Shown here: positions 94-24,768 of the stretch, one piece after another
How the letters are laid out: every line of letters starts with the position of its first letter
How positions within the stretch are numbered: the stretch's first letter is position 1
Origin: a virus
Reading direction: 5' to 3' (one strand)
DNA length: 30,079 nt
Virus record (IMG/VR): IMGVR_UViG_3300030331_004565
Coordinates: 1-30,079 of that record
Position numbers and translations under genes: made by a program
The notes under the pieces: model-generated
What the model was told of the DNA's origin: nothing
The model's database searches: none
What the model saw: only the letters and a program-made list of their open reading frames with translations

Positions 94-228
94 ATGATCA
101 AAAATTTTATAAAAAGTATTAAAAACGATCCTTTAAATTTTATAGTAGATTTTATGGCTTTATTAGCTATAATGATATTTGGATATGGTTTATTATTATT
201 TGGAGCTATAATAACTGGTAATGTTTAA
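94..228 (+). CDS. Small single-span membrane protein, 44 aa
   Basis: This short open frame starts at an ATG about 24 bases after the promoter at 38-69 and ends with a TAA that overlaps the next start codon by eight bases, the coupling style used throughout the window. The first 18 residues are basic and polar, and residues about 19-40 form one hydrophobic segment rich in Leu, Ile, Ala and Gly (for example MALLAIMIFGYGLLLFG). It looks like a one-pass inner-membrane peptide. I recognise no family. Its position as first gene of the transcript suggests it is expressed early, which is inference. Confidence 0.55.
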   Translation: MIKNFIKSIKNDPLNFIVDFMALLAIMIFGYGLLLFGAIITGNV

Positions 229-706
229 GATAGGTCATAGTAAAAAATATATAGAAAACCAATTATCAAAAAATTATAGAAAACTAAATTATAATCAATT
301 TAGATGGTGGAGGTGGTATGAATCAAGAAATAAACCACTACCTTATAAAGCTAATTTTAAAGATAAAATATTAAATGGCGACTACGACTCATCCCCTTAT
401 CAATTACAAGCACAGTTATGTGAACACATGCTAAATGAAATTTTAGAAGAGTGTAAAGATGATTATCAAAAATATTTAGAAAAATCTAAATTATTAGGAG
501 CGAGGAGAAAAAGATTATGGGAAGATTATAATAAGGATGAAAATGATAAAATTAATGATATTTATAAACAATTCAAAAAACATTTTCAAATTACTAGAGA
601 AGAAATAGATGAAGAAGTTATGAAATGTCGTGGAGAATTAATAGATCTTTACTATATTATTGAAGATAAGTATAAAAAGAAATTAAGTTATAAAAAATAT
701 GTCTAA
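221..706 (+). CDS. Hypothetical protein, 161 aa
   Basis: This is a highly charged, Lys/Glu/Tyr-rich protein with no signal peptide or membrane segment. An aromatic cluster (RWWRWYESR) sits near residues 28-36. The second half, from about residue 60 on, is mainly helix-forming with long charged stretches that may form a coiled coil. It begins inside the end of the 94-228 gene and ends overlapping the DpdA-like gene by eight bases, so it is probably co-transcribed with the DNA-modification genes. I do not recognise a named domain. A role linked to DNA modification is possible from position only. Confidence 0.8.
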   Translation: MFKIGHSKKYIENQLSKNYRKLNYNQFRWWRWYESRNKPLPYKANFKDKILNGDYDSSPYQLQAQLCEHMLNEILEECKDDYQKYLEKSKLLGARRKRLWEDYNKDENDKINDIYKQFKKHFQITREEIDEEVMKCRGELIDLYYIIEDKYKKKLSYKKYV

Positions 707-1556
707 AAATTTTCAATTCCAACCTAAAATTTCACATGAAGTACCTAGATGTCTTTTAAAAGCATCACAAGAATTTAATGACTATGATTACTGTTTACCT
801 CATTTATTAGATGAAGATAAAGAATATAAAGAATATTTTATTGATGCAAAAAATAAAGGTAGATATATTATTATGGATAATTCACTTCATGAATTAGGTA
901 AGGCATATGACCATAAAAGATTACATTATTGGATTAATGAAATATCTCCAAATGAATTTATAGTACCAGATGTTTGGATGAATTGTGCTCAAACAGCTGC
1001 TCAAGCTAAATATTGGTTACAATTTAAATATCCAAAAGATACTAAAATTATAGCTGTAATACAGGGTGAAGATAAAAATCAAGCTTATCTATGTGCTAAT
1101 TTATTATCAAATTTAGGTTATGAAAAATTATGTGTTTCTTATGGTGCAACTTGGTATAATGACTTTTTCCCTCATTCAAACCCAGATATGGGTAAGGCAC
1201 TAGGTAGAATTAGATTTGTACAAGGATTATTTAATTTAGAACAGTTTAATAGTACTAAATTTCATTTATTAGGATGTTCAATACCTCAAGAATTTGGTTG
1301 GTATAATAATCATCCACAAATAGAATCAATTGACACATCTAATCCAGTGATGGCAGCACTAGATGGTATAGAATATGACAATAATGGTTTATGTAGAAAA
1401 CCGAAAGCTAATATGAATAATTATTTTGATGTTAAATTTGAAGACATAAATTATGGTAGTATTCTTTATAACGTAAATAAGTTTAGAAAAGTAAACGGAT
1501 TTAGGCCCTATCCGGAACATACTGGGTCATTTTTAAATTTAGTAAGTAATGAATAA
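699..1556 (+). CDS. dpdA: DpdA-like TGT-family DNA base-exchange enzyme
   Basis: This is a TIM-barrel protein resembling tRNA-guanine transglycosylase (TGT). Motifs appear in the TGT order: MDNS at residues 59-62, PDV at 90-92 (substrate-side Asp), VIQG at 120-123, LLG at 190-192, and an Asp at 212 in SIDTS that matches the TGT nucleophile position. The C-terminal CxCxxC zinc site of tRNA-acting TGTs is absent. At 285 residues it is shorter than bacterial TGT (about 375). Phage and bacterial DpdA proteins of this fold exchange guanine in DNA for preQ0 or a related 7-deazaguanine. It overlaps queC by eight bases and lies upstream of queD, queE and folE, which supports the DNA-modifying role over tRNA queuosine. 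The fold is confident; the exact DpdA subtype and the base inserted are inference. Confidence 0.75.
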   Translation: MSKNFQFQPKISHEVPRCLLKASQEFNDYDYCLPHLLDEDKEYKEYFIDAKNKGRYIIMDNSLHELGKAYDHKRLHYWINEISPNEFIVPDVWMNCAQTAAQAKYWLQFKYPKDTKIIAVIQGEDKNQAYLCANLLSNLGYEKLCVSYGATWYNDFFPHSNPDMGKALGRIRFVQGLFNLEQFNSTKFHLLGCSIPQEFGWYNNHPQIESIDTSNPVMAALDGIEYDNNGLCRKPKANMNNYFDVKFEDINYGSILYNVNKFRKVNGFRPYPEHTGSFLNLVSNE

Positions 1557-2373
1557 ACATTGTGTAGTTTCGTTAAGTGGTGGAATGGATAGCAGCACCC
1601 TATTGTTAAGAGCTATCAGCGAATATGATACAGTTACAGCTATATCTTTTGATTATGGTCAAAAACATAGAATTGAACTAGAAAGAGCACAGTCTCTTAT
1701 AAATTATCTTGCAGATAAAGGTCATAGTGTAACTTACCAACAAATTAAACTTGATGGTTTAGTTGATTTATTAAATTCCGCTTTAGTACAAGGTGGAGAT
1801 GATGTACCAGAAGGACATTATGAGCAAGATAATATGAAAGAAACAGTAGTACCTAATAGAAATAAAATGTTTGCATCTATTGTACAAGCAGTAGCTTTAT
1901 CTAAAGCAAATGCTACAGAAGAACAAACAGATATTGCCCTAGGTATTCATGCTGGTGACCATGCAATTTACCCTGATTGTAGACAAGAATTTAGAGATGC
2001 AGATGATGCCGCTTTTAGAATGGGTAATTGGGATCATGAAAGAGTAGGTTATTTTACACCTTATCTTGATACTGATAAGTATGGTATATTACAAAATGGA
2101 GAATATTTATGTGGTGTTTTAGATATTGATTTTGATGAAGTTTATAAAAGAACAAATACATCATATAAACCTATTAAACACTATTACAGACCAGAAACAA
2201 ATGCCTATAAATGGTATTCAGATTATAAGTCAGCTTCATCTGTTGAAAGAATTGAGGCATTCATTAAGTTAGGTAGACCTGACCCAGTGGAATATGCAGA
2301 TGAAAGTGGTCCTGTAGAATGGAAAGTAGCTTCAAAACATGTTAATAATTTATTATCAGAGTGGAATGGATAA
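1549..2373 (+). CDS. queC: QueC-like 7-cyano-7-deazaguanine synthase without zinc cysteines
   Basis: QueC converts 7-carboxy-7-deazaguanine plus ammonia and ATP to preQ0. The PP-loop is clear (SGGMDSS, residues 10-16), as are VPNRN at 101-105, the GIHAGD region at 132-137 and YPDCRQEF at 141-148, all matching QueC. Canonical QueC ends with a zinc site made of one Cys in TCY and a CGxCxxC cluster before an ER..AF segment. Here the aligned positions read NTSYK (203-207) and SASSVERIEAF (228-238), so the four cysteines are lost, several to serine. Length (274 residues) is somewhat more than the usual 220-240. It sits between the DpdA-like gene and the other deazaguanine genes. Family membership is very likely; whether it makes the nitrile, stops at the amide or works without zinc cannot be told from sequence. 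Confidence 0.9.
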   Translation: MNKHCVVSLSGGMDSSTLLLRAISEYDTVTAISFDYGQKHRIELERAQSLINYLADKGHSVTYQQIKLDGLVDLLNSALVQGGDDVPEGHYEQDNMKETVVPNRNKMFASIVQAVALSKANATEEQTDIALGIHAGDHAIYPDCRQEFRDADDAAFRMGNWDHERVGYFTPYLDTDKYGILQNGEYLCGVLDIDFDEVYKRTNTSYKPIKHYYRPETNAYKWYSDYKSASSVERIEAFIKLGRPDPVEYADESGPVEWKVASKHVNNLLSEWNG

Positions 2374-2542
2374 ACAAAAACAAAAACAAGAATTACCTGA
2401 TGCGTATTTGCATCAGAAAATAAGTTTCTTTAAATCAGGTATTAGAATATTAGGTTATATTTTTATTCCTTTTAATTTGGTTACCGCAACTACTTTACTT
2501 ATATTGAGTGAGGTAGTGGGAATATTTGAGGAATTAGTATAA
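2366..2542 (+). CDS. Small membrane protein, 58 aa
   Basis: I place the start at the ATG at 2366, which overlaps the end of queC by eight bases. An upstream in-frame ATG at 2339 lies deep inside queC and is less likely. The product has a polar Gln/Lys-rich N-terminus (residues 1-14) and one long hydrophobic segment at about residues 25-52 (ILGYIFIPFNLVTATTLLIL), ending in acidic residues. It looks like a single- or hairpin-pass inner-membrane peptide. No family is recognised. Its place inside the deazaguanine operon suggests co-expression, not necessarily a role in that pathway. Confidence 0.65.
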   Translation: MDKQKQKQELPDAYLHQKISFFKSGIRILGYIFIPFNLVTATTLLILSEVVGIFEELV

Positions 2543-2558
2543 TAATTAAAATTAAAAA

Positions 2559-2804
2559 ATGAAAAAAATACTTTATTTTAGTGCCGCATGGTGCGGTCCT
2601 TGTAGAACATTAGGTCCTATTATTGATTCATTAGGTGACAAAATTAATTATGAAAAAGTAGATGTAGATAATGATACTACTTTAGCATCTGAATATGGAG
2701 TCAGAAATATACCAACTTTAGTATTAGTTAAAGATGGTGTAGAACAAAATAGACTAGTGGGATTACAAACAGAAAAATCAATATTAAATTTTTATAATGA
2801 GTAA
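2559..2804 (+). CDS. Thioredoxin/glutaredoxin-like protein
   Basis: This 81-residue cytoplasmic redox protein carries the classic active site WCGPC at residues 11-15, followed by the helix and the cis-proline segment NIPTL expected of thioredoxins. It is shorter than host thioredoxin (about 105 residues) because the first beta-alpha unit is missing, as is common in phage-encoded thioredoxins. It would reduce disulfides, classically as hydride donor for ribonucleotide reductase, which is not seen in this window. It overlaps queD by eight bases. It may keep the nearby radical SAM and thiol enzymes reduced, but that is only suggested by position. Confidence 0.9.
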   Translation: MKKILYFSAAWCGPCRTLGPIIDSLGDKINYEKVDVDNDTTLASEYGVRNIPTLVLVKDGVEQNRLVGLQTEKSILNFYNE

Positions 2805-3261
2805 ATATCAATCAAGCAAAGTATTTGACGGGTTTTCAACCGTATTCCGTCAATGGAAAGCAGAAACAACGCATTGCAAATATGTACACGGTTATGGAGT
2901 TTCATTTAAAGTCTATTTTGAAGGAGATTTAGATGAAAGAAATTGGGTTTGGGATTTTGGAGGTATGAAAAGAGCTAAAACATTAATTGATGGTAAACAA
3001 CCAAAAGCATGGATGGATTATATGTTTGACCATACATTAATTGTAGCAGAAGATGATCCTTATATTAAAGCATTTAAACAAATGGATGAAGCAGGTGTAG
3101 CTCAGGTAAGAGTAATTCCAGCTACTGGCGCAGAGAAATTTGCTGAATATATTTATACTAAACTCAATGATTTTGTTAAAACTGAAACTAATGGTAGGGT
3201 AAGAGTTACCAAAGTTAAGTTTGCAGAACATGGTAAAAATGCCGCTTATTATAGCGAGTAA
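2797..3261 (+). CDS. queD: QueD-like 6-carboxytetrahydropterin synthase
   Basis: QueD turns dihydroneopterin triphosphate, the FolE product, into 6-carboxy-5,6,7,8-tetrahydropterin. The 154-residue sequence keeps the catalytic positions of the family: Cys27 in THCKYVHGY, Asp78-His79 in FDHT, and Glu144 near the end (FAEHG). The zinc ligands are unusual. In E. coli QueD they are His16, His31 and His33; here His31 is kept, position 33 is Tyr (HGY for HGH), and the FSTVFRQW segment lacks the usual His. From memory, an alphaproteobacterial and phage branch shares the FSTVFRQW and HGY forms, so this looks like an established variant and not decay. It is separated from queE by 45 bases. Confidence 0.85.
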   Translation: MSKYQSSKVFDGFSTVFRQWKAETTHCKYVHGYGVSFKVYFEGDLDERNWVWDFGGMKRAKTLIDGKQPKAWMDYMFDHTLIVAEDDPYIKAFKQMDEAGVAQVRVIPATGAEKFAEYIYTKLNDFVKTETNGRVRVTKVKFAEHGKNAAYYSE

Positions 3262-3306
3262 AGAGTTATAACAGTGAATGAAAAACCACTTTAAAAAATT
3301 AACAAC

Positions 3307-4089
3307 ATGCACAGAAAATTAAAAAGAATAGAGGACTATAATAAAATCCTCCCGGTTTTAGAAGTGTACACAGCAGTACAATCAGAGGGATCAAGACAAG
3401 GTTATCCCACAATAGTAATTAGAACAACTGGATGCACCCATAGGTGTTATTTTGGAGAGGGAGGATGGTGTGATTCTTGGTATACAAGTATTCATCCTGA
3501 AAAAGGTACATATTCATTTCAAGACATAATAGATATGTATGATCAGCATCCTCATATTAAAGAAATGATGCTAACAGGGGGATCTCCTACAATGCATCCT
3601 TCTTTAGTAAATGAATTAACTCACTTTGCACATGAAAGGGATATTTTTATTACTATCGAAACTGAAGGATCTCATTTTCTTCCCACTGATTATCCTATTA
3701 ATCTCCTTTCAATTTCTCCTAAGTTCAGTAATAGCATTCCCGTTATTGGTGCTATTACTCCTCAGGGAGAAGTTGTTGACGAAAAAATGGTTAGGAAACA
3801 TAATTCGAAAAGGATGAATATTGAAGCAATAAAACAATCTATCAATTACCACTCAGATTATCATATTAAACCTGTATTAGATAAAGATTTATCTATGGTA
3901 GAAGAAGTAGAAGAAATGATAAAAGAATGTGAAATCCCAGATCATAAAATTTGGGCGATGCCTGCAGGGGATGATAGAAAATCTTTAATGGAATCCTATC
4001 CTGAAGTAATGAATTTTGTTAGAGATAGAGGATGGAGATTTACAGGTAGATCTCATATTATGGCTTTTGATACAGAAAGATGCGTTTAA
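3307..4089 (+). CDS. queE: QueE-like 7-carboxy-7-deazaguanine synthase (radical SAM)
   Basis: QueE is a radical S-adenosylmethionine enzyme that contracts 6-carboxytetrahydropterin into 7-carboxy-7-deazaguanine, the first deazapurine of the pathway. The N-terminal EVYTAVQSEGSRQG region (about residues 19-32) matches QueE. The cluster-binding cysteines are Cys43, Cys47 and Cys55, spaced C-x3-C-x7-C instead of the usual radical SAM C-x3-C-x2-C or the CX14CX2C of some QueE. The SAM-binding TGGSP motif is at 90-94. Length (260 residues) is slightly above normal. It overlaps the flavodoxin gene by ten bases, fitting the known use of flavodoxin as electron donor for QueE. Codon use is a little richer in C than in its neighbours. 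Confidence 0.9.
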   Translation: MHRKLKRIEDYNKILPVLEVYTAVQSEGSRQGYPTIVIRTTGCTHRCYFGEGGWCDSWYTSIHPEKGTYSFQDIIDMYDQHPHIKEMMLTGGSPTMHPSLVNELTHFAHERDIFITIETEGSHFLPTDYPINLLSISPKFSNSIPVIGAITPQGEVVDEKMVRKHNSKRMNIEAIKQSINYHSDYHIKPVLDKDLSMVEEVEEMIKECEIPDHKIWAMPAGDDRKSLMESYPEVMNFVRDRGWRFTGRSHIMAFDTERCV

Positions 4090-4580
4090 AATTAATATAC
4101 GGTTCCGACACAGGTAATACAGAATTAGTTACAGAAGACTTAGTTAAATTAATTGATGAAGTAGATGTAATTACTGTTAAAGATTTAACTCCTGAAGATT
4201 GGGATCATGATAAATTTATATTAGGCATACCTACTTGGTATGATGGTGAACTTCAAAGTGATTGGGAAGATTATTTTGAAGAATTTAAAACAATAGACTT
4301 TACAGATAAAACAGTAGCTATATTTGGTTTAGGAGACCAATTAGGGTATGAAGAATGGTTCTGTGATGGTGTAGGTATTTTAGCTAAAGTTGTTTTAGAA
4401 AATGGAGGTAAAATTATTGGTTATACTGAAAAAGATGATTCTTATGAATTAGATGAACCTTGCAAGGCCTTAGTTGATGATAATACCTTTTATGGTTTAT
4501 GTTTAGATGAAGATAACCAACAGGAACTAACCCAAGAAAGACTAGTGAAGTGGGTTGGAGATTTAAAAAAAGAATATTAA
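4080..4580 (+). CDS. Flavodoxin
   Basis: A flavodoxin of 166 residues, the long-chain size. The FMN phosphate loop GSDTGNTE is at about residues 8-15. The aromatic loop TWYDGELQ follows a typical GIPTW segment at about 50-59, and the second isoalloxazine loop is GLGDQLGYEEWFCDG at about 83-97. It carries single electrons in the cytoplasm. Its start overlaps the end of queE, and flavodoxin is the physiological reductant for E. coli QueE, so it probably powers the phage QueE. It could also serve a ribonucleotide reductase elsewhere in the genome. Confidence 0.93.
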   Translation: MRLKLIYGSDTGNTELVTEDLVKLIDEVDVITVKDLTPEDWDHDKFILGIPTWYDGELQSDWEDYFEEFKTIDFTDKTVAIFGLGDQLGYEEWFCDGVGILAKVVLENGGKIIGYTEKDDSYELDEPCKALVDDNTFYGLCLDEDNQQELTQERLVKWVGDLKKEY

Positions 4581-4605
4581 ATTAATAATAAATAAATACA
4601 AGTTT

Positions 4606-5307
4606 ATGTCAAAAAGAAAATCAAAAATAAAATCCCATTTAGATTTAGAAACGGCTAAAGTAGGTTATGCAAACGGGGTTTCACACAAATATCCCCTTAC
4701 TGATAAGGAAAAAGGTAAAATGATTAAAGATGCAGCAGCAGCTTATGCTCGTTTCTTAGAAGCATTAGATTGTGATTGGCAAGACGATCCTAATTCTTCT
4801 GATACTCCAATGAGAGTAGCTAAAGCTTATGTTAATGATTTATGGGCAGGTAGATATACCCCTATGTCTGATATTACTGCGTTTCCTTCAGATGGATATG
4901 ATGGAATTGTAATTGAAAGAAATATTCCATTAACATCAATGTGTTCACATCACCACCAAACAATTGGAGGTGTAGTACATATAGGTTATATAGTAGGTAA
5001 AGAAGGTAAAGTAGTTGGATTATCTAAATTAAATAGAATAGTTGAATTATTTGGTAGAAGAGGAGCAATACAAGAGCAATTAACATCAGCAATACATAAT
5101 GCAGTTGATGAAATATGTGAAAATAATAGAGGTGTTATTGTAACAGTAGTAGCTACTCATAACTGTGTAAGTTGTAGAGGTGTAAAACACCAAGGAGCAT
5201 CTATGGTTACAACTAAAGCATCAGGTGTATTTAGACAAAATACCAATTTAGCTAGAAAAGAATTTTTTGATTCAATTAAAATAAATAATGGCGGACACAA
5301 CATCTAA
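4606..5307 (+). CDS. folE: GTP cyclohydrolase I
   Basis: FolE opens the guanine ring of GTP to give dihydroneopterin triphosphate, the entry step of 7-deazaguanine synthesis. The 233-residue protein shows the zinc and catalytic motifs: MCSHHH at 112-117 (zinc Cys113 and a following His), GLSKLNRIVE at 138-147, and CVSCRGVKHQGA at 187-198 with zinc Cys187. The first 40 residues are a basic, poorly conserved extension. Unlike QueC and QueD in this operon, its zinc site looks fully canonical. The 25-base A/T-rich gap before it has no Shine-Dalgarno sequence. It overlaps the phosphoribosyltransferase gene by 20 bases. Confidence 0.95.
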   Translation: MSKRKSKIKSHLDLETAKVGYANGVSHKYPLTDKEKGKMIKDAAAAYARFLEALDCDWQDDPNSSDTPMRVAKAYVNDLWAGRYTPMSDITAFPSDGYDGIVIERNIPLTSMCSHHHQTIGGVVHIGYIVGKEGKVVGLSKLNRIVELFGRRGAIQEQLTSAIHNAVDEICENNRGVIVTVVATHNCVSCRGVKHQGASMVTTKASGVFRQNTNLARKEFFDSIKINNGGHNI

Positions 5308-5773
5308 AATATTCCTTGAATGGTCTGATATACATGAATGTGTTAGAATTTTATGTACAAAGATCTTTATGGATTATCCAAATATAGACTCAGTAATGGG
5401 ATTACCTAGAGGAGGACTAATACCAGCAGTAATGATTTCTCATGAATTAGGATTACCTCTAGAACTACACCCAGGCAAAAATACTTTAGTAGTAGATGAT
5501 ATTAATGATACAGGACATACTTTAAGTAAAGCACCAGGTGCTTATTGGGCTGTATTACACCAAAAACCAACATCTAAATTTAAACATGCTATGTATGCTA
5601 AAGAAGTTGGAGATGAATGGTTAGTATATCCTTGGGAAAGAGAAGATTCAAAAGCTTTACCTGACTATTTAAAACAGGTTGAACACCTGAGTGATTCTCA
5701 TTATATTGGTGGTCTAACAATGCCTAAAGGAGCTAAAACCTCTTGGTGGAAAAAAATGAGTAATAATGAATAA
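5288..5773 (+). CDS. Phosphoribosyltransferase, type I
   Basis: The PRPP-binding motif LVVDDINDTGHTL lies at residues 67-79, and the pyrophosphate loop MGLPRGG is at 37-43, typical of type I purine phosphoribosyltransferases (xanthine/hypoxanthine type). The 161-residue length fits. It would join a nucleobase to PRPP in the cytoplasm. It overlaps folE by 20 bases and the MazG-like gene by eight. In this setting it may salvage guanine or hypoxanthine, or act on the deazaguanine base itself. Sequence alone does not decide the substrate. Confidence 0.85.
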   Translation: MADTTSKIFLEWSDIHECVRILCTKIFMDYPNIDSVMGLPRGGLIPAVMISHELGLPLELHPGKNTLVVDDINDTGHTLSKAPGAYWAVLHQKPTSKFKHAMYAKEVGDEWLVYPWEREDSKALPDYLKQVEHLSDSHYIGGLTMPKGAKTSWWKKMSNNE

Positions 5774-6305
5774 ACAATTAAAAATGGATTTTCAAGTATT
5801 TGATCCTGAAGCAAATGGGTTAGTTCCTTTTGTTGATGAAGTAGAAAGATTTAACACAACATTTAATAAACCAAACAATTATAGTCCTACAATTCCTAAT
5901 GAGAAAGAATGGATGTTTGTATATGATTTTATTCAGGAAGAATTAGCTGAATATAAAGAAGCTTGTGAAAAGGGTGATATAGTAGGAATATTAGATGCAT
6001 TATGTGATATCACTTATGTATCTTTAGGTAATGGTACTATGTTACATGGCTTAAAAAATAAAATATGGCCAGCATATGAAGAAGTACAAGCATCAAATAT
6101 GTCTAAATCATGTGAAACTGAAGAAGAAGCTATAGAAACAGTCTCTATTAGATCTAAGGAACAATTAGAAGATTGTCATTATGAAAAAGTTGGAAATAGA
6201 TACGTTGTATATAGATCCAGAGATAGAAAAGTAATGAAATCAATTAATTATTTTGCACCAAATTTGAAAAAATTTTTTACAAAGGAAGAACTAGATAATG
6301 TATAA
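5766..6305 (+). CDS. MazG-like nucleotide pyrophosphohydrolase
   Basis: This all-alpha NTP pyrophosphatase-fold protein has the magnesium-binding pattern EELAEYKEA (residues 58-66) followed by DALCDITYVSLG (77-88), the EExxE...ExxD arrangement of MazG and PRA-PH relatives. It would split a nucleoside triphosphate to the monophosphate and pyrophosphate. The C-terminal third (about 120-179) is an added charged region I do not recognise. It overlaps the neighbours on both sides by eight bases, so it is co-expressed with the deazaguanine genes and the polymerase. Such enzymes in phages adjust nucleotide pools or alarmone levels; the substrate is unknown. Confidence 0.75.
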   Translation: MNKQLKMDFQVFDPEANGLVPFVDEVERFNTTFNKPNNYSPTIPNEKEWMFVYDFIQEELAEYKEACEKGDIVGILDALCDITYVSLGNGTMLHGLKNKIWPAYEEVQASNMSKSCETEEEAIETVSIRSKEQLEDCHYEKVGNRYVVYRSRDRKVMKSINYFAPNLKKFFTKEELDNV

Positions 6306-8058
6306 AAAATGTTATGCAACAAGGATAGGTGGTTATGATAGTAATCGTTATAAAATTGACTTGTGGGATGAAGATGGTCACCAAGAAATTGAATGGTTAG
6401 ATACAGCTTATGTAGAAGATGATAGTGGTAAATTTATTGGTTTAGAAGGTGAAAAACTATCTAAAACTACAAAATGGAATAAAAGAGATCTTGGACTTCA
6501 TTACCATGATATGAAGGCACATCAAAAATTCCTAATTGAAAAATATGGTATTAATGATACTCCATCAACAGGCCATAGAGAAGTTTATTTTGATATTGAG
6601 TGTGAAATTGGAGGTGCATTAACTAAAGAATATATTGAAAGTGCTCCTATGCCTATTACTTCTATTGCATGGTGGGATAAAAAAGATTGGATTATTCTAA
6701 TTTTAGATAAGAAAAATCTAATAAAAAGTACTACTTGGGATAAACAAAGAAATAAAAAAATAATACCTTGTAGAAGTGAACGTGAACTACTAGCAGAATT
6801 TTTAAAATACCATGTAGATAACTACCCAGATATTTTAATAGGTTATAATAGTGATTTTTTCGATATACCTTATTTATATTATAGAATATGTAATGTATTA
6901 GGTAAGGAATATGCTGAAATGCTATCACCACTACAACAAGTAAAAACTGAAAAATCATCATGGTTTAAACATCCAGAGACTCAAAAATGGATTTCTTATT
7001 GGAGTAAAAGAGATCAGTATGTAGATTTAGTTGGAATTGAACAATTAGATTATCTTCGTTTGCATAAAAAATATAGTTGGAAAGATGAACCAAGCTATAA
7101 ACTAGATGCTATTGGAGAAAAGTATGCTGGTGTTAAAAAAATTGAATATGAAGGTAACTTAGATCAACTATTTGAAACAGACTTACATAAGTTTATTGAA
7201 TATAATTTTCGTGATGTTGAAATACTTAAACTATTAGACGAAAAATTAGATTACATAGCATTAACTAAAAACTTGGCACATAAAGGTAAGCATAATTATG
7301 ATGAAGTCTATTCAAATAGTGTTACTCAAGATGGGGCAATTTCAGCTTACCTATTGTCCCAAAATATTATTCCACCAGCTAGACCTTACCAAGGTAAAAG
7401 ACCATTAGGTAAGGGTGAAACTTATGCTGGTGGTTATTTATTTTGTCCTAAAGCAGGATTATACAATTATATGTTTGATTTAGATTTAGTATCACTGTAT
7501 CCATGTATAATAATGTCACTTAACATAGGTAGAGAAACTTTAGTCGGTTATATTAAAGATGCTAATAAACGTAATAGTAGATTGGCTATTAATGATTTAA
7601 AAGATCGTGATCCTGATGAAGAATTATTAATTGAGAATATTAAAGGACAACAAACACATGTAAATGTTGGTAAATTAATATCTATGATTGAACAAAATCA
7701 ATTATCAGTATCTGCTAATGGAACATTTTTTAGACAAGATAAGGAATCAGTATTATCAACTATTTTAAATAAATGGTTTGATGAAAGAGTAGAGTATAAA
7801 AATAAAATGAAGGAAGCTTATAAAGCTAAAGATAAGGAAAAAGGCGAATATTATTATTTAATGCAATACACAATGAAAATTCTGCTCAATTCATTATATG
7901 GAGCAACAGCATTACCTACTTTTAGATATGGATTACCTAATTTTTTAATTAGTCAAGCTATTACTTTAACAGGACAAAGAATTATTCAAGAAAGTGCATT
8001 ATGTGCTAACACATTTTTAAATAAAGTGTTAAGAGATGAAATAAAACTAGAAATATGA
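6298..8058 (+). CDS. 43A: DNA polymerase family B, N-terminal part (exonuclease, motifs A and B)
   Basis: These 586 residues are the first two thirds of a T4 gp43-like replicative DNA polymerase. Exonuclease motifs are YFDIEC (Exo I, Asp99/Glu101), IGYNSDFFDIPYL (Exo II, 181-193) and YNFRDVEIL (Exo III, 302-310). Polymerase motif A is DLVSLYP (396-402) and motif B is KILLNSLYG (527-535). The protein then stops shortly after the helix that follows motif B, before motif C. The second catalytic aspartates are supplied by the gene at 8667-9647. The two parts sum to 912 residues, close to T4 gp43 at 898, so little or nothing is lost. The stop overlaps the next ATG as ATGA. No intein motif is visible at the break. 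Confidence 0.93.
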   Translation: MYKKCYATRIGGYDSNRYKIDLWDEDGHQEIEWLDTAYVEDDSGKFIGLEGEKLSKTTKWNKRDLGLHYHDMKAHQKFLIEKYGINDTPSTGHREVYFDIECEIGGALTKEYIESAPMPITSIAWWDKKDWIILILDKKNLIKSTTWDKQRNKKIIPCRSERELLAEFLKYHVDNYPDILIGYNSDFFDIPYLYYRICNVLGKEYAEMLSPLQQVKTEKSSWFKHPETQKWISYWSKRDQYVDLVGIEQLDYLRLHKKYSWKDEPSYKLDAIGEKYAGVKKIEYEGNLDQLFETDLHKFIEYNFRDVEILKLLDEKLDYIALTKNLAHKGKHNYDEVYSNSVTQDGAISAYLLSQNIIPPARPYQGKRPLGKGETYAGGYLFCPKAGLYNYMFDLDLVSLYPCIIMSLNIGRETLVGYIKDANKRNSRLAINDLKDRDPDEELLIENIKGQQTHVNVGKLISMIEQNQLSVSANGTFFRQDKESVLSTILNKWFDERVEYKNKMKEAYKAKDKEKGEYYYLMQYTMKILLNSLYGATALPTFRYGLPNFLISQAITLTGQRIIQESALCANTFLNKVLRDEIKLEI

Positions 8059-8270
8059 CATTAAAAAAACAATCAATTAGACAAAATATGGTTATTAAAG
8101 CCAATGGAAAATTAATTGAAAAAGAAGAATTAATAAAATTAAGTGAATCCTGGAATGAATCACAAGAAAATATGTTTAAAAAATGTCTAAAGCAGGGAGT
8201 ATTTAGATTTACAATTAATAAAATAACTTTTCAAATAACACTAACAAATAAATACAATGAAAAAATTTAA
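8055..8270 (+). CDS. Hypothetical protein, 71 aa, inside the split polymerase
   Basis: A small basic protein whose ATG overlaps the stop of the polymerase N-terminal part (ATGA) and whose end overlaps the next gene by 14 bases. The sequence has a central charged helix (KEELIKLSESWNESQENMF) and a C-terminal strand-like segment (FRFTINKITFQITL). It has no LAGLIDADG, GIY-YIG or HNH motif, so it does not look like an intact homing endonuclease. I do not recognise the family. It could be a remnant of an element that split the polymerase, or a small replication partner. Confidence 0.7.
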   Translation: MTLKKQSIRQNMVIKANGKLIEKEELIKLSESWNESQENMFKKCLKQGVFRFTINKITFQITLTNKYNEKI

Positions 8271-8670
8271 AGAACAAACTAATTATAAAGTAGATATATC
8301 TAATGGAGAATTATTGGATAAAATTTCAATTTTAGAATTAAAGTTACTTAAAATTGATAATAAAGAAAAATTAAATAATATTCAAAATGAATTTGATACT
8401 ATTAATCCTTTAGTAGTAGATTTATTTGAAACCTATGGTTCTGATTTACAAATTAAGTATTTAGAACTATCTAAAATTAATGGTCAACTTTGGGATATAG
8501 AAGATGACATAAGAGAATGTGAAAGAAATAAAGATTTTAGTAAAAAATTTGTAGAACTAGCTCGTTCTGTGTATATTACTAATGATGAAAGAAGTAGAGT
8601 TAAAAAAGAAATTAATATGTTAACTAACTCAAATTTAGTAGAAGAAAAATCATACGAAGATTATAAATGA
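8257..8670 (+). CDS. DUF6165 family protein
   Basis: The sequence resembles the DUF6165 family: VDISNGELLDKISILELKL near residues 12-31, LWDIEDDIRECERNKDF at about 79-95, and ELARSVYITNDERSRVKKEIN at about 100-120. It is a mostly helical, charged, 137-residue cytoplasmic protein of unknown function. Relatives are often found next to glycan or polysaccharide genes, which makes its position between the two polymerase halves odd. It overlaps the upstream small gene by 14 bases and the downstream polymerase part by an ATGA. It has no nuclease motif. The family call is from memory of these motifs. Confidence 0.7.
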   Translation: MKKFKEQTNYKVDISNGELLDKISILELKLLKIDNKEKLNNIQNEFDTINPLVVDLFETYGSDLQIKYLELSKINGQLWDIEDDIRECERNKDFSKKFVELARSVYITNDERSRVKKEINMLTNSNLVEEKSYEDYK

Positions 8671-9647
8671 GACATTTAGAAGATACTCCTTGGTGGATTT
8701 GTAATAAAAATGATGTGAATTTATGTGCTTATGTTGACACAGATTCAAATTATTTTCATGGGGGTCCTGTACTAAAACATTTATATCCTGATTTTGAAGA
8801 AAGATTTAATGATATTGAAAAAGATAATATAACTGAAAAATTAGCTGAAATAACAGAAGAAGTAATTAATGAAGATTATAAAAGATTAGTTACTGAAAGT
8901 TTTGGAGTTATTGGGAAGAATAGGTTAAAAATGAAAACTGAATGTGTTATTAGAGCAGCTTATTTTAGAGCAACAAGACGTTACGCTCAATGGATAACAA
9001 AAACAGAGGGTATAACAAAAGAAACTTTAGATATTAAAGGTTTAGAGTTTATGAAAGCAAATTTTCCTCCCATTTTAGGAGAATTTTTTAATGATATTTT
9101 ACAACAAACATTAAAAGGTGTTAAAGAAGAAAGTATTACTAATCAAATAAAATTATTTAAAGAAAAAATATTAAATGGAGATATTCCTTTAACCCAACTA
9201 GGAAACCCAACCATGATTAAAAAATTAAATAAATATAAAGGACATAAGGCGGCTGGTGAAATATTTACCGAAATATTAAGGCCTTTAAGTGCTAAAAAAG
9301 AAGGAAAAACACAAAGAAATTTAGGAGCACCCGCACCTGTTAGAGCTGCAATTAGGTACAATGATTTATTAACTTTATGGCAATTAGATAAAAAATATAA
9401 TTTAATGACTCAGGCTGATAAGGTAAAATGGATTTATTTAAAAGATAATCCATATAAAATTGAAGCACTAGCTTTTTTTGATTATGAAATGCCTCCTAAA
9501 ATAAAACAATTTTTAGAACAATATGCAGATAGACAAAAAGTATTTGATTCTATTTTATTAAATAAATTAGAAGGGTTTTTTAATGATCTAGAATGGGATT
9601 TATCTTTAAATCCCTATGTAAATGCATTGAGTTCTTTTGAAGTATAA
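8667..9647 (+). CDS. 43B: DNA polymerase family B, C-terminal part (motif C and thumb)
   Basis: This 326-residue protein starts just before motif C, AYVDTDSNYF (residues 21-30), which holds the palm aspartates missing from the 6298-8058 protein. A KNRLKMKTE segment and an ARYxx-like RATRRYAQWI stretch (about 90-113) match the region after motif C in T4-type polymerases, and the remainder is the thumb. Alone it has no exonuclease, motif A or motif B, so it must join the N-terminal part to be active. Its start is an ATGA overlap with the DUF6165 gene, which would favour balanced translation of the two halves. Confidence 0.92.
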   Translation: MRHLEDTPWWICNKNDVNLCAYVDTDSNYFHGGPVLKHLYPDFEERFNDIEKDNITEKLAEITEEVINEDYKRLVTESFGVIGKNRLKMKTECVIRAAYFRATRRYAQWITKTEGITKETLDIKGLEFMKANFPPILGEFFNDILQQTLKGVKEESITNQIKLFKEKILNGDIPLTQLGNPTMIKKLNKYKGHKAAGEIFTEILRPLSAKKEGKTQRNLGAPAPVRAAIRYNDLLTLWQLDKKYNLMTQADKVKWIYLKDNPYKIEALAFFDYEMPPKIKQFLEQYADRQKVFDSILLNKLEGFFNDLEWDLSLNPYVNALSSFEV

Positions 9648-15781: not shown

Positions 15782-15999
15782 ATATACAAGTATATAAATT
15801 TCTAAAATCAGAAGCCGAAGCTGATAAAAATAAGGCATTAGCAAGTATTGAGCTATTAACTAACCACCCAGCAGGAATTGGTGATCATTCAACAAAAGAC
15901 TATTGGGATAATTGTACTGAAGCTCTTAAATTATTGTCATCGGCAGATGAAAGATTAGAAATCCTAGAAAAATATTTTAATACAAAAGAAGTAGTGTAA
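15778..15999 (+). CDS. Hypothetical protein, 73 aa
   Basis: A small acidic, helical protein. It has a helix rich in Lys/Glu/Ala (residues 5-25), a short loop NHPAGIGDHSTKDYWDN (about 29-45), and a second helix (CTEALKLLSSADERLEILEKYF). It could be a helical hairpin or part of a coiled coil. It overlaps the gp62-like gene by four bases (ATGA) and its stop shares a base with the DUF1599 gene start (TAATG). It is not RegA, which is longer (122 residues) and sits in this neighbourhood in T4. The function is unknown. Confidence 0.75.
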   Translation: MNIQVYKFLKSEAEADKNKALASIELLTNHPAGIGDHSTKDYWDNCTEALKLLSSADERLEILEKYFNTKEVV

Positions 16000-16400
16000 T
16001 GAGTGATTCAGTAAAAACATACTATGAAGAAAAGGAATTTGGGAAAGTAGAAGCAGTTAAAACATCATCTACAGTAGAAGCATTTGAAACCGAATACCCA
16101 GAACTATCAGAAGAATTTAAAAGAATAAGTGAAGAAATGTATGAAATGTTTGCTGCTAAACACATGGACTATGGTTTAAATAATATTGCTCTTGGAGGTG
16201 ATTTAACTAATAAAGAAGATAAAAAGTTTTCACTTACTGGTTTAGCAATTAGATTAACCGATAAAATATCTAGATTAAAAAATCTTTTAATTAACGGAAA
16301 AAACTACGTTAAAGGAGAAGGAATGGAAGACACGTTTATTGATATAGCTAATTATGGAATAATTGGTTTATTAGTTGGACGTGATAAATGGAAAAAGTAA
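15999..16400 (+). CDS. DUF1599 / nucleotide modification associated domain 1 protein
   Basis: The second half of this 133-residue protein matches the DUF1599 (Nmad1) pattern: AAKHMDYGLNNIALGG at about 52-67, then GLAIRLTDKISRLKNLL at about 80-96, and the ending DTFIDIANYGIIGLLV at about 110-125. The family is known from phages and bacteria with modified DNA bases and is thought to act on nucleotides, though no reaction has been assigned. Its helical, acidic residue pattern is reminiscent of MazG-type pyrophosphatases. Its presence fits a phage with a deazaguanine DNA-modification pathway 10 kb upstream. It lies three bases before the TTG start of the nuclease gene. Confidence 0.7.
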   Translation: MSDSVKTYYEEKEFGKVEAVKTSSTVEAFETEYPELSEEFKRISEEMYEMFAAKHMDYGLNNIALGGDLTNKEDKKFSLTGLAIRLTDKISRLKNLLINGKNYVKGEGMEDTFIDIANYGIIGLLVGRDKWKK

Positions 16401-17562: not shown

Positions 17563-19011
17563 ATGAATAAAAGTTTTAAGCACCTTCCCCAAAATGAGAG
17601 GAAGAAAATACTATTAATCTGTGATGATATTAGAGTACATTCTGGAGTAGCAACAGTAGCTAAAGAAGTAGTAGTACATACTGCTCACCATTTTAATTGG
17701 GTCCAAATGGCAGGAGCAATAAAACATCCTGAACTTGGAAAACATTTAAATATATCTAATGATACTAATAATCTTGCAGGTATAAATGATAGTTCTGTAT
17801 TTTTATATCCTGTAAATTCATATGGTGATCCTCGAATATTACGTGAGATACTAAAAAACGAAAAACCAGATGCCGTATTATTAATTACTGACCCTAGATA
17901 TTTTAGGTATATTTGGGATATGGAAAGTGAAATTAGAAAACATTGTCCTATTGCATACTTAAATATTTGGGATGATTACCCGGCTCCAATGTATAATAAA
18001 CCATATTATGAAGCATGTGATTTATTAATGGGTATTTCAAAACAAACAGTAAATATTAATAAATTAGTAATGGAAGGGTGTGATAAACCAAGAATATACA
18101 AATATGTACCTCATGGTTTAAATCATAAAATTTACTATCCTATGACTAAGAAAGATAGATTAGATAAAGAATTTTTAAATTTTGAAGACGCTATTTTTCA
18201 AGGTAAAAAACCTAAATTTACCTTGTTCTTTAATTCAAGAAACATCAGAAGAAAACAAATCCCAGATAGTCTAATGGCTTTTAGATTATTTTTAGATTCA
18301 CTTCCATATGAAGATGCACTTCAATGTAAGATGATACTACATACAGAGAGATCAACTGAAGCTGGAACCGATTTATATGAAGTAAATGATTTTTTATTTG
18401 GAGAAAAGTATGATGAGAATTTAATTTTTTCTCATAATAAATTATCTACAACACATCTAAATTATCTATATAATATAGCTGATGCCCAAATTTTAATTAC
18501 TTCTAATGAAGGTTGGGGATTAACACTTACAGAGGCAATCTTATCAGGTACTCCTATTATTGCTAATGTAACAGGTGGAATGCAAGATCAAATGAGATTT
18601 GTAGATGATGAGGGCAAGTGGTTTGAACCAGATGCTAATGTTCCTTCAAATCACAGAGGTACTTATAAAAAACATGGTGAATGGGCTTTTCCTGTTTATC
18701 CTACTTCTAGATCAATCCAAGGTTCACCTCCTACACCTTATATCTATGATGATAGATGTAAATTTGAAGATGTAGTAGAAAAAATTAAAGAATTATATCA
18801 TTTAAGTCCCAAAGAAAGAGTAAAAAGAGGTTTAAAAGGTAGAGAATGGGCTATAAGTGATGAAGCAGGATTTACTTCTATTCATCAAGCTAATAGAGTA
18901 ATGGAGGCATTTAATGAATTATTTGATACTTGGAAACCAAGAGAAAAATATGAAATTATTAATGCTACTAAACATAAAAGAAGTTTCATAAATCATAAAA
19001 TAATATACTAA
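17563..19011 (+). CDS. Glycosyltransferase, GT-B fold, family 4-like
   Basis: This 482-residue cytoplasmic protein opens with ILLICDDIRVHSGVATVAKE (about 15-34), a GT4-type N-terminal loop. In the C-terminal domain it has the donor-binding NEGWGLTLTEAILSGTPIIA segment with the E-x7-E pair at Glu316 and Glu324. It would transfer a sugar from a nucleotide-sugar donor with retained configuration. It is longer than a typical GT4 because of a roughly 100-residue insertion or extension after the active site. It starts the 10 kb glycan run and ends sharing a base with the next gene (TAATG). The acceptor is unknown. Confidence 0.88.
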   Translation: MNKSFKHLPQNERKKILLICDDIRVHSGVATVAKEVVVHTAHHFNWVQMAGAIKHPELGKHLNISNDTNNLAGINDSSVFLYPVNSYGDPRILREILKNEKPDAVLLITDPRYFRYIWDMESEIRKHCPIAYLNIWDDYPAPMYNKPYYEACDLLMGISKQTVNINKLVMEGCDKPRIYKYVPHGLNHKIYYPMTKKDRLDKEFLNFEDAIFQGKKPKFTLFFNSRNIRRKQIPDSLMAFRLFLDSLPYEDALQCKMILHTERSTEAGTDLYEVNDFLFGEKYDENLIFSHNKLSTTHLNYLYNIADAQILITSNEGWGLTLTEAILSGTPIIANVTGGMQDQMRFVDDEGKWFEPDANVPSNHRGTYKKHGEWAFPVYPTSRSIQGSPPTPYIYDDRCKFEDVVEKIKELYHLSPKERVKRGLKGREWAISDEAGFTSIHQANRVMEAFNELFDTWKPREKYEIINATKHKRSFINHKIIY

Positions 19012-20312
19012 TGAATAAAAAAAATAAACCATTTTTTGTAATAAGCTGCCCTTTTGACACATATAGTGGTTATGGAGCCAGATCAAGAGACGTAGTAAAA
19101 TCAATAATAGAATCAGACAAATATGAAGTCCAATTATTAGCTCAAAGATGGGGTGATACTCCCTGGAATTTTTGTAAAGACCATTCTGAGTGGGAATTTT
19201 TATATGATTATGAGCATAACCCTAGAACATCATCTAGAAGACAACCAGATATTTGGATGCAAATAACTATTCCTAATGAATTTACTCCTATTGGAAAATA
19301 TAATATTGGATGTACTGCTGGTATTGAAGCTACTTCATGTAGAGGTGAGTGGGTTGAAGGAATAAATAGAATGAATGAGACTTGGGTATCATCTAAATTT
19401 GCAAAAAATGTATTTGATAATGTTAAATTTGAAAAAAGAGATCAAAAAACAAATAATGTTATAGGTGAATTAAAAGTCGAAAAACCAGTTCATGTTATAT
19501 TTGAAGGAATAGATACTAATTTATATAAGAAAATTTCAAAACCAAAAACTAAAAGCATCAATTTATCAAGTATAAAAGAACAATTTTGTTATCTATTTGT
19601 AGGTCATTGGATGAATGGAGCACATGGTCATGATAGAAAAAATGTAGGAGTATTAGTAAAAGAATTTATTGAAACTTTTAAAAATAGAAAAGGAATGCCT
19701 GCATTAATTTTAAAATGTAGTAAAGGTAGTAACTCCTATACTGGTAAAGATGCTATTTTAAAACAAATAAATAGTTACACTAGAGCATACAAAAATGAAA
19801 AGATCCCAAATATATATTTGTTACATGGTGAATTTACTGATGTTGAAATGAATGATTTATATAACCATTCTAAAATAAAAGCTATGGTAAGTTTTACTAA
19901 AGGAGAGGGATATGGTAGACCACTATTAGAATTTAGCCTATCAGGTAAACCAGTTATAGCATCTGGATGGTCTGGTCATATGGATTTTTTACACCCAGAA
20001 TTTAATACCTTTATACAAGGTCAATTAGAAAATGTACATCCTAGTGCAGCTAATGAATGGTTATTAAAAGAAGCTAGATGGTTCCAAGTTAATACTGCTT
20101 ATGCTAGAGAAGCTTTAAGAAGTGTATATAATAATTTTAAATTAAAATTAAGTAACGCTAAAAGACAAGCATATTTTGCTAAAAATAATTTTAGTAGAGA
20201 ACAAATGAGTGAGTTAATTGATAATCATTTATCAGAAGTTTTACCTGAGTTTTCAGTTACTCAAGAATTAAAAATACCAGAATTAAAAATTCCAAAACTT
20301 AAAAAAGTATAA
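19011..20312 (+). CDS. Glycosyltransferase, GT-B fold, family 4-like
   Basis: A second GT-B enzyme, 433 residues, with the N-terminal SCPFDTYSGYGARSRDVV loop (about 11-28) and the C-terminal donor site KGEGYGRPLLEFSLSGKPV, E-x7-E at Glu299 and Glu307. The order of motifs matches the upstream gene, but overall similarity is low, so they are probably different specificities and not a recent duplicate. The last 20 residues carry three short repeats built on L/E-K-I-P (LKIPELKIPKLKK). It is followed two bases later by the 148-residue unknown gene. Confidence 0.87.
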   Translation: MNKKNKPFFVISCPFDTYSGYGARSRDVVKSIIESDKYEVQLLAQRWGDTPWNFCKDHSEWEFLYDYEHNPRTSSRRQPDIWMQITIPNEFTPIGKYNIGCTAGIEATSCRGEWVEGINRMNETWVSSKFAKNVFDNVKFEKRDQKTNNVIGELKVEKPVHVIFEGIDTNLYKKISKPKTKSINLSSIKEQFCYLFVGHWMNGAHGHDRKNVGVLVKEFIETFKNRKGMPALILKCSKGSNSYTGKDAILKQINSYTRAYKNEKIPNIYLLHGEFTDVEMNDLYNHSKIKAMVSFTKGEGYGRPLLEFSLSGKPVIASGWSGHMDFLHPEFNTFIQGQLENVHPSAANEWLLKEARWFQVNTAYAREALRSVYNNFKLKLSNAKRQAYFAKNNFSREQMSELIDNHLSEVLPEFSVTQELKIPELKIPKLKKV

Positions 20313-20314
20313 TT

Positions 20315-20761
20315 ATGCAATATGATGAAATAGTAAATTGCCCTAAATCTGGAGGTGATTTATGTTATAAAGTAGAAGTTACCAAAGATATAACTAATTA
20401 TATGAGTTTATCTTGTGGTTTTTGGACTAATACCTTAATGAAAGCAGGATCTAGTTTTTTTGAAGAACAAATAGAACTTTTACCTGAGTTATATAAAGAT
20501 TTAGCTTGGACAGATCCAAATACAGAATTAATTTGGTTACCAACTACAATAAATGAAGAACAATTAGGTATGGTTTTTGCTAATGGCCAAAATAGTTCAA
20601 CTTGGAGTTGGTCAGCAGTAAAAGCAAGACCTTTAACTGAAGATGAATTAAAAGAAGTAGAAGGTAAAATAACACACAAACCAGATATGTCTACTATGAA
20701 AACGTTTCATGAACGTGATTTTATGGAAGCACTTTCATATATTGGAATATTACCTGAATAA
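20315..20761 (+). CDS. Hypothetical protein, 148 aa, in the glycan cluster
   Basis: A soluble acidic protein with recognisable aromatic-rich stretches: ITNYMSLSCGFWTNTLM (about 26-42), ELLPELYKDLAWTDPNTELIWLPTT (about 53-78) and GMVFANGQNSSTWSWSAVKA (about 85-104). Similar proteins are, to my memory, common in marine T4-type phages beside glycosyltransferases and have no assigned role. It has no DxD, Rossmann or nuclease motif. It is spaced two bases from both neighbours, so it belongs to the same transcript. Confidence 0.8.
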   Translation: MQYDEIVNCPKSGGDLCYKVEVTKDITNYMSLSCGFWTNTLMKAGSSFFEEQIELLPELYKDLAWTDPNTELIWLPTTINEEQLGMVFANGQNSSTWSWSAVKARPLTEDELKEVEGKITHKPDMSTMKTFHERDFMEALSYIGILPE

Positions 20762-20763
20762 CT

Positions 20764-21387
20764 ATGAATATAAGTTACGCAATTACAGTATGTAATGAAT
20801 TAGAAGAAATTACCAGATTATTAAATTTTCTTTTAAAATATAGAAGAAAAAATGATGAAATTGTAGTTTTATTTGATAAAGGTAAAGGTACTGCTGAGGT
20901 ATGGAATAGAATCATTGAATTAAAGGGTGAAAAAAATGTAGTATATAAGGCAGAAACCTTTAAACATCATTTTGCTGATTGGAAAAATAAATTAACTAAT
21001 ATGTGTACAGGTGATTATATATTCCAAATAGACGCAGATGAAATCCCACACGAGTTATTAATAGAAAATTTACCAAGTATAATTAAAGACAACCCAGATA
21101 ATGAAGTTTATTTAGTCCCTAGAGTTAATACAGTAACTGGCTTAACTAGTGAACATATAAATAAATGGAGATGGAATGTAGATGAAGAAGAAAGAGTAAA
21201 TTGGCCTGACTATCAATGGCGTGTATGGAAAAATAAACCAGAAATAAAATGGAAAAATAAAGTACATGAGATATTAGAGGGACACAAAACACATGCTTTT
21301 ATACCAGCAATGAAAGAATTAGCATTATATCATCCTAAAACAATAGCTAAACAAGAGGAACAAAATAATTATTATAATACTTTATGA
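20764..21387 (+). CDS. Glycosyltransferase family 2-like
   Basis: A compact 207-residue GT-A enzyme. The N-terminal ISYAITVCNELEEITRLL (3-20) and the metal- and nucleotide-sugar-binding DxD in FQIDADEIP (Asp90, Asp92) are typical of family 2. It is shorter than most family 2 enzymes (250 or more) and ends soon after the acceptor domain, like the small lipopolysaccharide core transferases that contain WRVWKN and W.. . .VHE segments (here at about 156-176). It overlaps the methyltransferase gene by four bases (ATGA). Confidence 0.82.
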   Translation: MNISYAITVCNELEEITRLLNFLLKYRRKNDEIVVLFDKGKGTAEVWNRIIELKGEKNVVYKAETFKHHFADWKNKLTNMCTGDYIFQIDADEIPHELLIENLPSIIKDNPDNEVYLVPRVNTVTGLTSEHINKWRWNVDEEERVNWPDYQWRVWKNKPEIKWKNKVHEILEGHKTHAFIPAMKELALYHPKTIAKQEEQNNYYNTL

Positions 21388-21992
21388 GAGAAACTCAAAG
21401 ATATGAATTATTAAACCATTTAATTGACACTTATAGTTTTGTTAATTATTTAGAAATTGGTGTTTTTTCTGGTGAATGTATTAGAGCTGTTAAAGCGGAA
21501 CATAAAGATGGAGTAGATCCTGGGCACGAAGGTTTTATGGTAGATGAAGTAAATTATCCTATCACTTCAGATAAATTTTTTGAGCTTATAAATGGTCATG
21601 ATATAAAATATGACCTTATTTTTATAGATGGGTTACACCATTATGAACAAGTAAAAAAAGATATTGAAAATAGTTTAAAACACATCCAACCTAATGGTAT
21701 TATAATGATGCATGATTGTAATCCCCTAACTTATGAATCACAATTAGTTCCTAGGCAATGCATTACTTGGCATGGTGATGTTTGGAAAGCATATGTTGAA
21801 TTTAAACAAACACATCCTGCCTTTAATTGTTATGTAGTTGATACTGATTGTGGTTGTGGTGTAATAGTTAATAACGAAGATAAAACTCAAATTCCCATAA
21901 ATTTGGATTTGAATTATAAAGACTTAGAAAAAAATAGAAAAGAACTATTAAATTTAATAACAGTAAAAGAATTTAAAAATATATTTAAATGA
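21384..21992 (+). CDS. Class I SAM-dependent methyltransferase
   Basis: The Rossmann-like SAM site opens with NYLEIGVFSGECI (21-33, motif I). DLIFIDGLHHYE (about 76-87) is the post-motif II strand, and NGIIMMHDCNP (about 104-114) completes a pattern seen in the methyltransferase group found in polysaccharide and glycan clusters (Methyltransf_24 type). It probably O-methylates a sugar of the glycan assembled by its neighbours. A DNA or protein target cannot be excluded but no target-recognition domain is present. It is overlapped by four bases on each side. Confidence 0.83.
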   Translation: MRETQRYELLNHLIDTYSFVNYLEIGVFSGECIRAVKAEHKDGVDPGHEGFMVDEVNYPITSDKFFELINGHDIKYDLIFIDGLHHYEQVKKDIENSLKHIQPNGIIMMHDCNPLTYESQLVPRQCITWHGDVWKAYVEFKQTHPAFNCYVVDTDCGCGVIVNNEDKTQIPINLDLNYKDLEKNRKELLNLITVKEFKNIFK

Positions 21993-24766: not shown

Positions 24767-24768
24767 AT

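Follow-up and report, generated by a model that had tools for sequence, protein, structure and literature searches.

The IMG/VR record IMGVR_UViG_3300030331_004565 (30,079 bases, about 28% GC; the whole stretch analysed, hereafter the window) comes from a marine-type phage, T4-like to judge from its markers (family B polymerase, clamp loader, GroEL/ES). Megablast with 24 kb of the window retrieved no close phage record. Near its start lies a group of genes predicted to make the modified base 7-cyano-7-deazaguanine (preQ0) from GTP and to place it in phage DNA. A first, sequence-only reading had located such a route in 699-5307, where folE, queD, queE and queC stand together with a gene resembling dpdA. 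The five genes are all open and intact on one strand, and all have matches in Pfam or PHROGs, the DpdA-like product being a member of phrog_19058 (2e-42), a family annotated as of 'unknown function'. The functional unit is larger than that interval, and reaches back to 221 and forward to 6305, taking in an upstream open reading frame (ORF), a purine phosphoribosyltransferase (PRT) gene and a MazG-like gene; the thioredoxin and flavodoxin genes inside the interval had also gone unmentioned. The cluster is arranged in the order of Table 1, and the polymerase gene directly follows its downstream end. Neighbouring genes repeatedly overlap by 8-20 bases (706/699, 1556/1549, 2804/2797, 4089/4080, 5307/5288, 5773/5766, 6305/6298), so that the whole looks like one transcription unit.

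Table 1. Features of the 7-deazaguanine cluster, with Pfam and PHROGs E-values where given
Feature	Position	Strand	Basis
Conserved basic, mostly helical protein, function unassigned	221-706	+	conservation upstream of dpdA
Compact DpdA-like guanine transglycosylase, TGT-fold TIM barrel (predicted)	699-1556	+	phrog_19058, fold model
Zinc-less QueC, predicted preQ0 synthase	1549-2373	+	PF06508, 130.6 bits, 7e-38; PHROGs 2e-43
Small ORF with hydrophobic stretch	2339-2542	+	conserved position; no Pfam or PHROGs match
Thioredoxin-like protein	2559-2804	+	PF00085 6e-18
QueD (6-carboxytetrahydropterin synthase), altered zinc-ligand positions	2797-3261	+	PF01242 (PTPS) 4e-14, phrog_2389 2e-40
QueE (7-carboxy-7-deazaguanine synthase), radical SAM, CX3CX7C	3307-4089	+	Pfam radical SAM 1e-7; phrog_2076 1e-49; solved QueE 5tgs
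Flavodoxin	4080-4580	+	PF00258 9e-21
FolE, GTP cyclohydrolase I	4606-5307	+	PF01227 4e-43, phrog_2197 8e-59
Gpt-type PRT	5288-5773	+	PF00156; PDB purine and xanthine-guanine PRTs
MazG/PRA-PH-like nucleotide pyrophosphohydrolase	5766-6305	+	PF01503 1e-9

The gene set is not peculiar to this record. A scan of IMG/VR viral contigs with the DpdA-like protein returned 134 relatives, 80 of which were kept, and gene order is nearly unchanged among these. In the 45 related contigs that extend far enough downstream of dpdA, QueC is encoded in 45, QueD in 42, QueE, PRT and the MazG-like protein in 40 each, and FolE in 33. Recurrence of the set in IMG/VR is far above chance.

The 699-1556 protein was modelled with high confidence (pLDDT, the predicted local distance difference score, of 90.4), and the model adopts the fold of tRNA-guanine transglycosylase (TGT) and DpdA, though by sequence the protein is not a tRNA TGT. 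The top 41 matches of the model in the PDB (E-values from 2.7e-6 to 1.1e-4) are TGTs or 7ui4, the solved DpdA, a DNA preQ0 insertase, at a sequence identity of 10-12%. The sequence-only reading had called the protein TGT-fold and DpdA-like, and the structure comparison bears this out. Grouping with tRNA-acting enzymes was not observed: there is no match in Pfam, that for tRNA TGT (PF01702) included, and no TGT was matched in a PDB profile search run with a 44-sequence DpdA-like profile. On these grounds the identification as a tRNA TGT was rejected. Residues D60-N61, D91, G192 and D212 are invariant in a divergent DpdA-like set, in which Q122 is mostly retained, and D60, D91, Q122, G192 and D212 are all invariant in 44 relatives. 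In the model D60-N61, D91, G192 and D212 sit at or just past strand ends, and the series follows the order of the TGT active site (Asp, Asp, Gln, Gly, Asp). As hhalign failed to align the DpdA profile with a single E. coli TGT sequence, a target of low diversity, the mapping of the putative active site is based on fold and residue order. The protein is predicted to exchange guanine in DNA for a 7-deazaguanine. Work by Cui and co-workers in 2023 reportedly named a DpdA3 subfamily and linked it to complete replacement of guanine; the window protein might belong to it.

The DpdA-like protein is 36-37% identical to proteins of Campylobacter Firehammerviruses, CP220 and CPt10 included (36% over 91% of the length), and of Flavobacterium phage vB_FspM_immuto (Immutovirus; hereafter immuto; 37%). 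More distant relatives occur in Bacillus phage BSP7, Cellulophaga phage phiST and Chryseobacterium phage MA9V-3. In a 2019 survey, Campylobacter phages were listed with preQ0 genes and no DpdA (PMC6884629). In CP220 and CPt10, whose proteins fall in the same compact family (phrog_19058), 100% of dG was reported as dADG (PMC8306585); this kinship, which had escaped the sequence-only reading, makes extensive guanine replacement plausible by analogy in the window phage as well.

QueC departs from the canonical enzyme. Canonical QueC features the motifs SGGxDS, YxQxHxxE, VPxRN and YPDC, and a zinc motif, C(x)8CxxCxxC (PMC13329287). The window protein retains the former, all four of them conserved in 54 sequences; all four cysteines of the zinc motif are gone, in the window protein and in its relatives. 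The zinc region is replaced by a Ser-rich stretch, TNTSYKP...SDYKSASSVERIEAF, whose conservation is 95% or more across 54 related sequences, and found also in the immuto QueC, which is 70.6% identical to the window protein and similarly zinc-less. Because all four zinc cysteines are absent, the protein is set by its sequence outside canonical QueC (cluster 1 of PMC13329287), in a clade of zinc-less QueCs. The protein is not fused to an amidotransferase (GAT).

Zinc-less QueC occurs in bacteria as well. Of 60 Pirellulaceae genomes searched for QueC, nine carry a zinc-less form, 45-51% identical to the window protein and marked by the same cysteine loss; the remaining Pirellulaceae QueCs that were read are of the zinc form. 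In the nine genomes the zinc-less gene, which is chromosomal, is the only QueC found, and TGT and QueF are encoded in all of them (the TGT match in one, G019, is fragmentary and lies at the end of a contig), so that the enzyme presumably serves tRNA queuosine. In a tree computed without the zinc region, the phage and bacterial zinc-less proteins are sister groups in one clade (support 99/94), with one change. Since QueF reduces preQ0, the zinc-less QueC of the nine Pirellulaceae should make preQ0, and immuto too carries zinc-less QueC alongside QueF. CP220 QueC, in turn, retains the zinc cysteines and has changed catalytic motifs (YGSNH, FPDC). The hypothesis that zinc loss is a switch stopping QueC at ADG was lowered in view of these distributions. 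From the sequences compared, zinc-less QueC most likely makes preQ0, the simplest reading being that loss of zinc would not halt the enzyme at ADG. The sequence-only reading had named plain preQ0 as the simplest base unless QueC was altered: altered it is, by a loss which that reading had missed, and preQ0 is still the product favored by QueF co-occurrence and by the clade.

Other phages add to the variety of QueC. The QueC of Vibrio phage vB_VibM_83AMN (L105:1501-2355) also lacks the zinc cysteines; it falls outside the main zinc-less clade, on a long branch of unsure placement, and perhaps represents a second loss. In phiST (L088) and MA9V-3 (L090), which have a related DpdA-like protein and other deazaguanine genes, no QueC match was found in the whole record, a result compatible with a base whose synthesis skips the nitrile step.

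Of the remaining enzymes of the route, QueD and QueE stand out by their metal motifs. Alignment with E. coli QueD shows C27, D78-H79 and E113 of the window protein to be invariant; of the three zinc-His positions only H31 is retained, the first His being absent and HGH having become HGY. The same changes are found in immuto and phiST, which share with the window protein the conserved motif FRQW..E.THC..VHGYG. Searching the PDB by sequence with QueD yielded chance matches only, and a bacterial counterpart, sought in 11 Pirellulaceae genomes, gave weak matches only. The radical SAM cysteines of QueE (C43, C47, C55) align with the canonical ones, and a five-residue insertion, conserved in relatives, immuto and phiST, produces the CX3CX7C spacing. 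FolE matches PF01227 at 147 bits (cut-off 27), and its zinc-ligand motifs (Cys/His/Cys), MCSHH and HNC, are present and conserved. In 54 of 56 loci the thioredoxin gene and queD overlap, and the flavodoxin gene is found in few relatives only. Flavodoxin is a natural reductant for a radical SAM enzyme such as QueE, and may donate electrons to it. The small ORF at 2339-2542 occupies the same place in most related loci; any link to the pathway is conjectural.

The PRT and MazG-like genes were both overlooked in the sequence-only reading. In every one of 39 loci the PRT gene and folE are no more than 150 bp apart, and in 22 they overlap. The PRT carries a phosphoribosyl pyrophosphate (PRPP) motif, an RGG loop and the W...PWE stretch found in Gpt-type enzymes, and the RGG and DD.D.G.T motifs are invariant. 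Insertion of each base by DpdA must free one guanine, and FolE consumes one GTP per 7-deazaguanine; the constant adjacency of PRT and folE suggests that guanine released by DpdA is recycled towards GTP. This link and the zinc-free QueC look new, the system itself being of a known kind. A possible role of the MazG-like protein is to trim dNTP pools. A PDB profile search matched the protein to no MazG-type protein, the solved MazZ included, leaving the assignment at the general PRA-PH family, and specificity for dGTP was set aside as unsupported. No PRA-PH-type MazG was found in CP220, hence MazG is not essential to this DpdA type.

The 221-706 ORF is a possible candidate for a DpdA partner. Of 45 related contigs of sufficient length, 39 have it; in 45 of 70 loci no more than 150 bp separate it from dpdA, and the mean isoelectric point of its product is about 9.1, compared with about 6.0 for DpdA. 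The protein has no match in Pfam, PHROGs or a fold search, and no homologue was found in six other phages with the same DpdA type, in a search run without a positive control.

Further genes of the neighbourhood deserve mention. A thymidylate-kinase-like gene adjoins, or lies two genes from, such a dpdA in Campylobacter phages CP220 and CP21 and in immuto (L087:6813-7355, L002:9813-10355, L001:10475-10999); no kinase gene stands alongside the window dpdA. In the replication region, 15999-16400 encodes the Pfam domain DUF1599 ('Nucleotide modification associated domain 1'), and might belong to the same or to another nucleotide modification. The family B polymerase (6298-9647) is divided between two ORFs: 6298-8058 carries the exonuclease domain and the DxxSLYP and NSLYG motifs, 8667-9647 the DTDS motif. 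Between them are one or two small ORFs, among which 8257-8670 is DUF6165, and the split arrangement recurs in about 30 related contigs. A long run of ORFs at 17563-27472 resembles, by reading only and with no family search, glycosyltransferases, a methyltransferase and a sugar epimerase.

Among phages described so far, immuto is similar to the window phage in QueC, in QueD (68% identity) and QueE (71%), and in the presence of PRT and MazG-like genes. It differs because its deazaguanine genes are scattered, QueF and formyltransferase genes adjoin its DpdA, and its polymerase is of family A; no homologue of 221-706 was found, again in a search without positive control. In CP220 and CPt10 dpdA and the preQ0 genes do not share an operon. 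A precedent for the base predicted here comes from Escherichia phage CAjan and Mycobacterium phage Rosebush: the same minimal gene set gives dPreQ0, as seen in their DNA by liquid chromatography-mass spectrometry, and in CAjan dpdA is required (PMC6884629). In these phages about 30% of the Gs are replaced, the Rosebush-type QueC (L104) has the zinc cysteines, and, at the search level used, their DpdA shows no sequence match to the 699-1556 protein.

The conserved gene set, the TGT/DpdA fold and the kin in phages with deazaguanine DNA make the route from GTP to a 7-deazaguanine in DNA, as first proposed from the sequence, the best reading of the cluster. In the model that we favor, and consider probable as a whole, FolE, QueD, QueE and then zinc-less QueC would convert GTP to preQ0, and the compact DpdA would swap guanine in phage DNA for free preQ0, leaving dPreQ0. 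The modified base, at a probably high fraction of Gs, would cause many restriction enzymes to fail, a kind of DNA shielding already known in phages. The guanine freed at each exchange would be turned into GMP by the neighbouring PRT, and thence back into GTP, the substrate of FolE. A bolder version is tentative and somewhat less likely than not: preQ0 synthesis by a zinc-independent QueC, both in a clade of phages and in some Planctomycetes, together with a closed cycle in which guanine released by DpdA is returned to GTP by the PRT and kinases, allowing preQ0 to replace most or all guanines of the DNA.

The predicted base is thus dPreQ0, with dADG and dPreQ1 as its rivals. The closest chemically characterised DpdA relatives carry dADG (PMC8306585), and the zinc site is said to be necessary for QueC function (PMC13329287); an altered QueC could accordingly halt at the amide, and the window phage insert ADG as CP220 and CPt10 do. 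Yet the CP220 enzyme keeps the zinc cysteines and is changed in its catalytic motifs, which the window QueC preserves, and nine Pirellulaceae genomes, as well as immuto, encode zinc-less QueC and QueF together; insertion of ADG is, on balance, unlikely. That immuto, with a closely related QueC, has QueF and formyltransferase beside DpdA, and that the window spans only part of the genome, would be in line with further processing of preQ0, whether by QueF of the host or by a phage gene beyond the window, to dPreQ1 or a derivative. However, searches that did detect immuto turned up no QueF in 18 related contigs, the longest of 138,667 bases (those of 119 and 139 kb included), and no formyltransferase in nine, and we regard such processing as quite unlikely. 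The absence of QueF and of an amidotransferase had been pointed out in the sequence-only reading, and extends to the relatives as far as QueF is concerned.

Other alternatives concern the substrate rather than the base. The DpdA-like protein might swap the base in dGMP or dGTP, the MazG-like protein lowering dGTP and the polymerase incorporating the modified dNTP. A dNTP route was earlier proposed for Campylobacter phages (PMC6884629), and would suit the complete replacement seen in CP220 and CPt10 (PMC8306585), the MazG-like gene in 40 of 45 contigs and the genes resembling thymidylate kinase that neighbour DpdA in CP220 and immuto; MazZ of S-2L phages exemplifies such control of the pool (PMC8342488). 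We hold it improbable, as the fold relatives of the DpdA-like protein act on polymers, PRA-PH-type MazG was not found in CP220, no kinase lies beside the window dpdA, and the solved MazZ was unmatched in the PDB profile search. Service to host tRNA, with queuosine precursors boosted and the 699-1556 protein acting on tRNA, is the explanation given for phages with preQ0 genes and no recognised DpdA (PMC6884629). It is highly improbable here, where the transglycosylase is outside the tRNA TGT family and groups with proteins of modified-DNA phages, and family searches found no queuosine-specific gene in the operon.

Several data weigh against insertion of preQ0 in phage DNA. The DpdA-like protein is short and mildly acidic, and no part of it is obviously suited to bind DNA; the metal motifs of QueD and QueE are unusual; the window covers a fragment of the genome, and the base could still be altered by genes further on or by a QueF of the host; the nearest chemically known DpdA relatives, CP220 and CPt10, carry ADG and not preQ0 (PMC8306585). 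GAATTC, the most depleted six-base palindrome in the window (0 versus 8.3 expected), is again the most depleted in 17 relatives (45 versus 98.5 expected), and other palindromes are mildly depleted. Depletion suggests lasting pressure by restriction enzymes, and implies that any protection would be incomplete. EcoRI digested preQ0-containing CAjan DNA completely in a 2019 study (PMC6884629). Depletion of GAATTC is a weak additional hint on the base, post hoc and not deciding.

Deazaguanine DNA in phages is already known, and the route itself is not new. If the interpretation favored here is true, zinc would be dispensable for preQ0 synthesis, although QueC is defined by its zinc motif. Comparison of zinc-less QueC with the ADG-associated QueC of Campylobacter phages would point to residues that may decide between amide and nitrile. 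In turn, the PRT gene always found beside folE would suggest how a phage pays for the wholesale exchange of its guanines.

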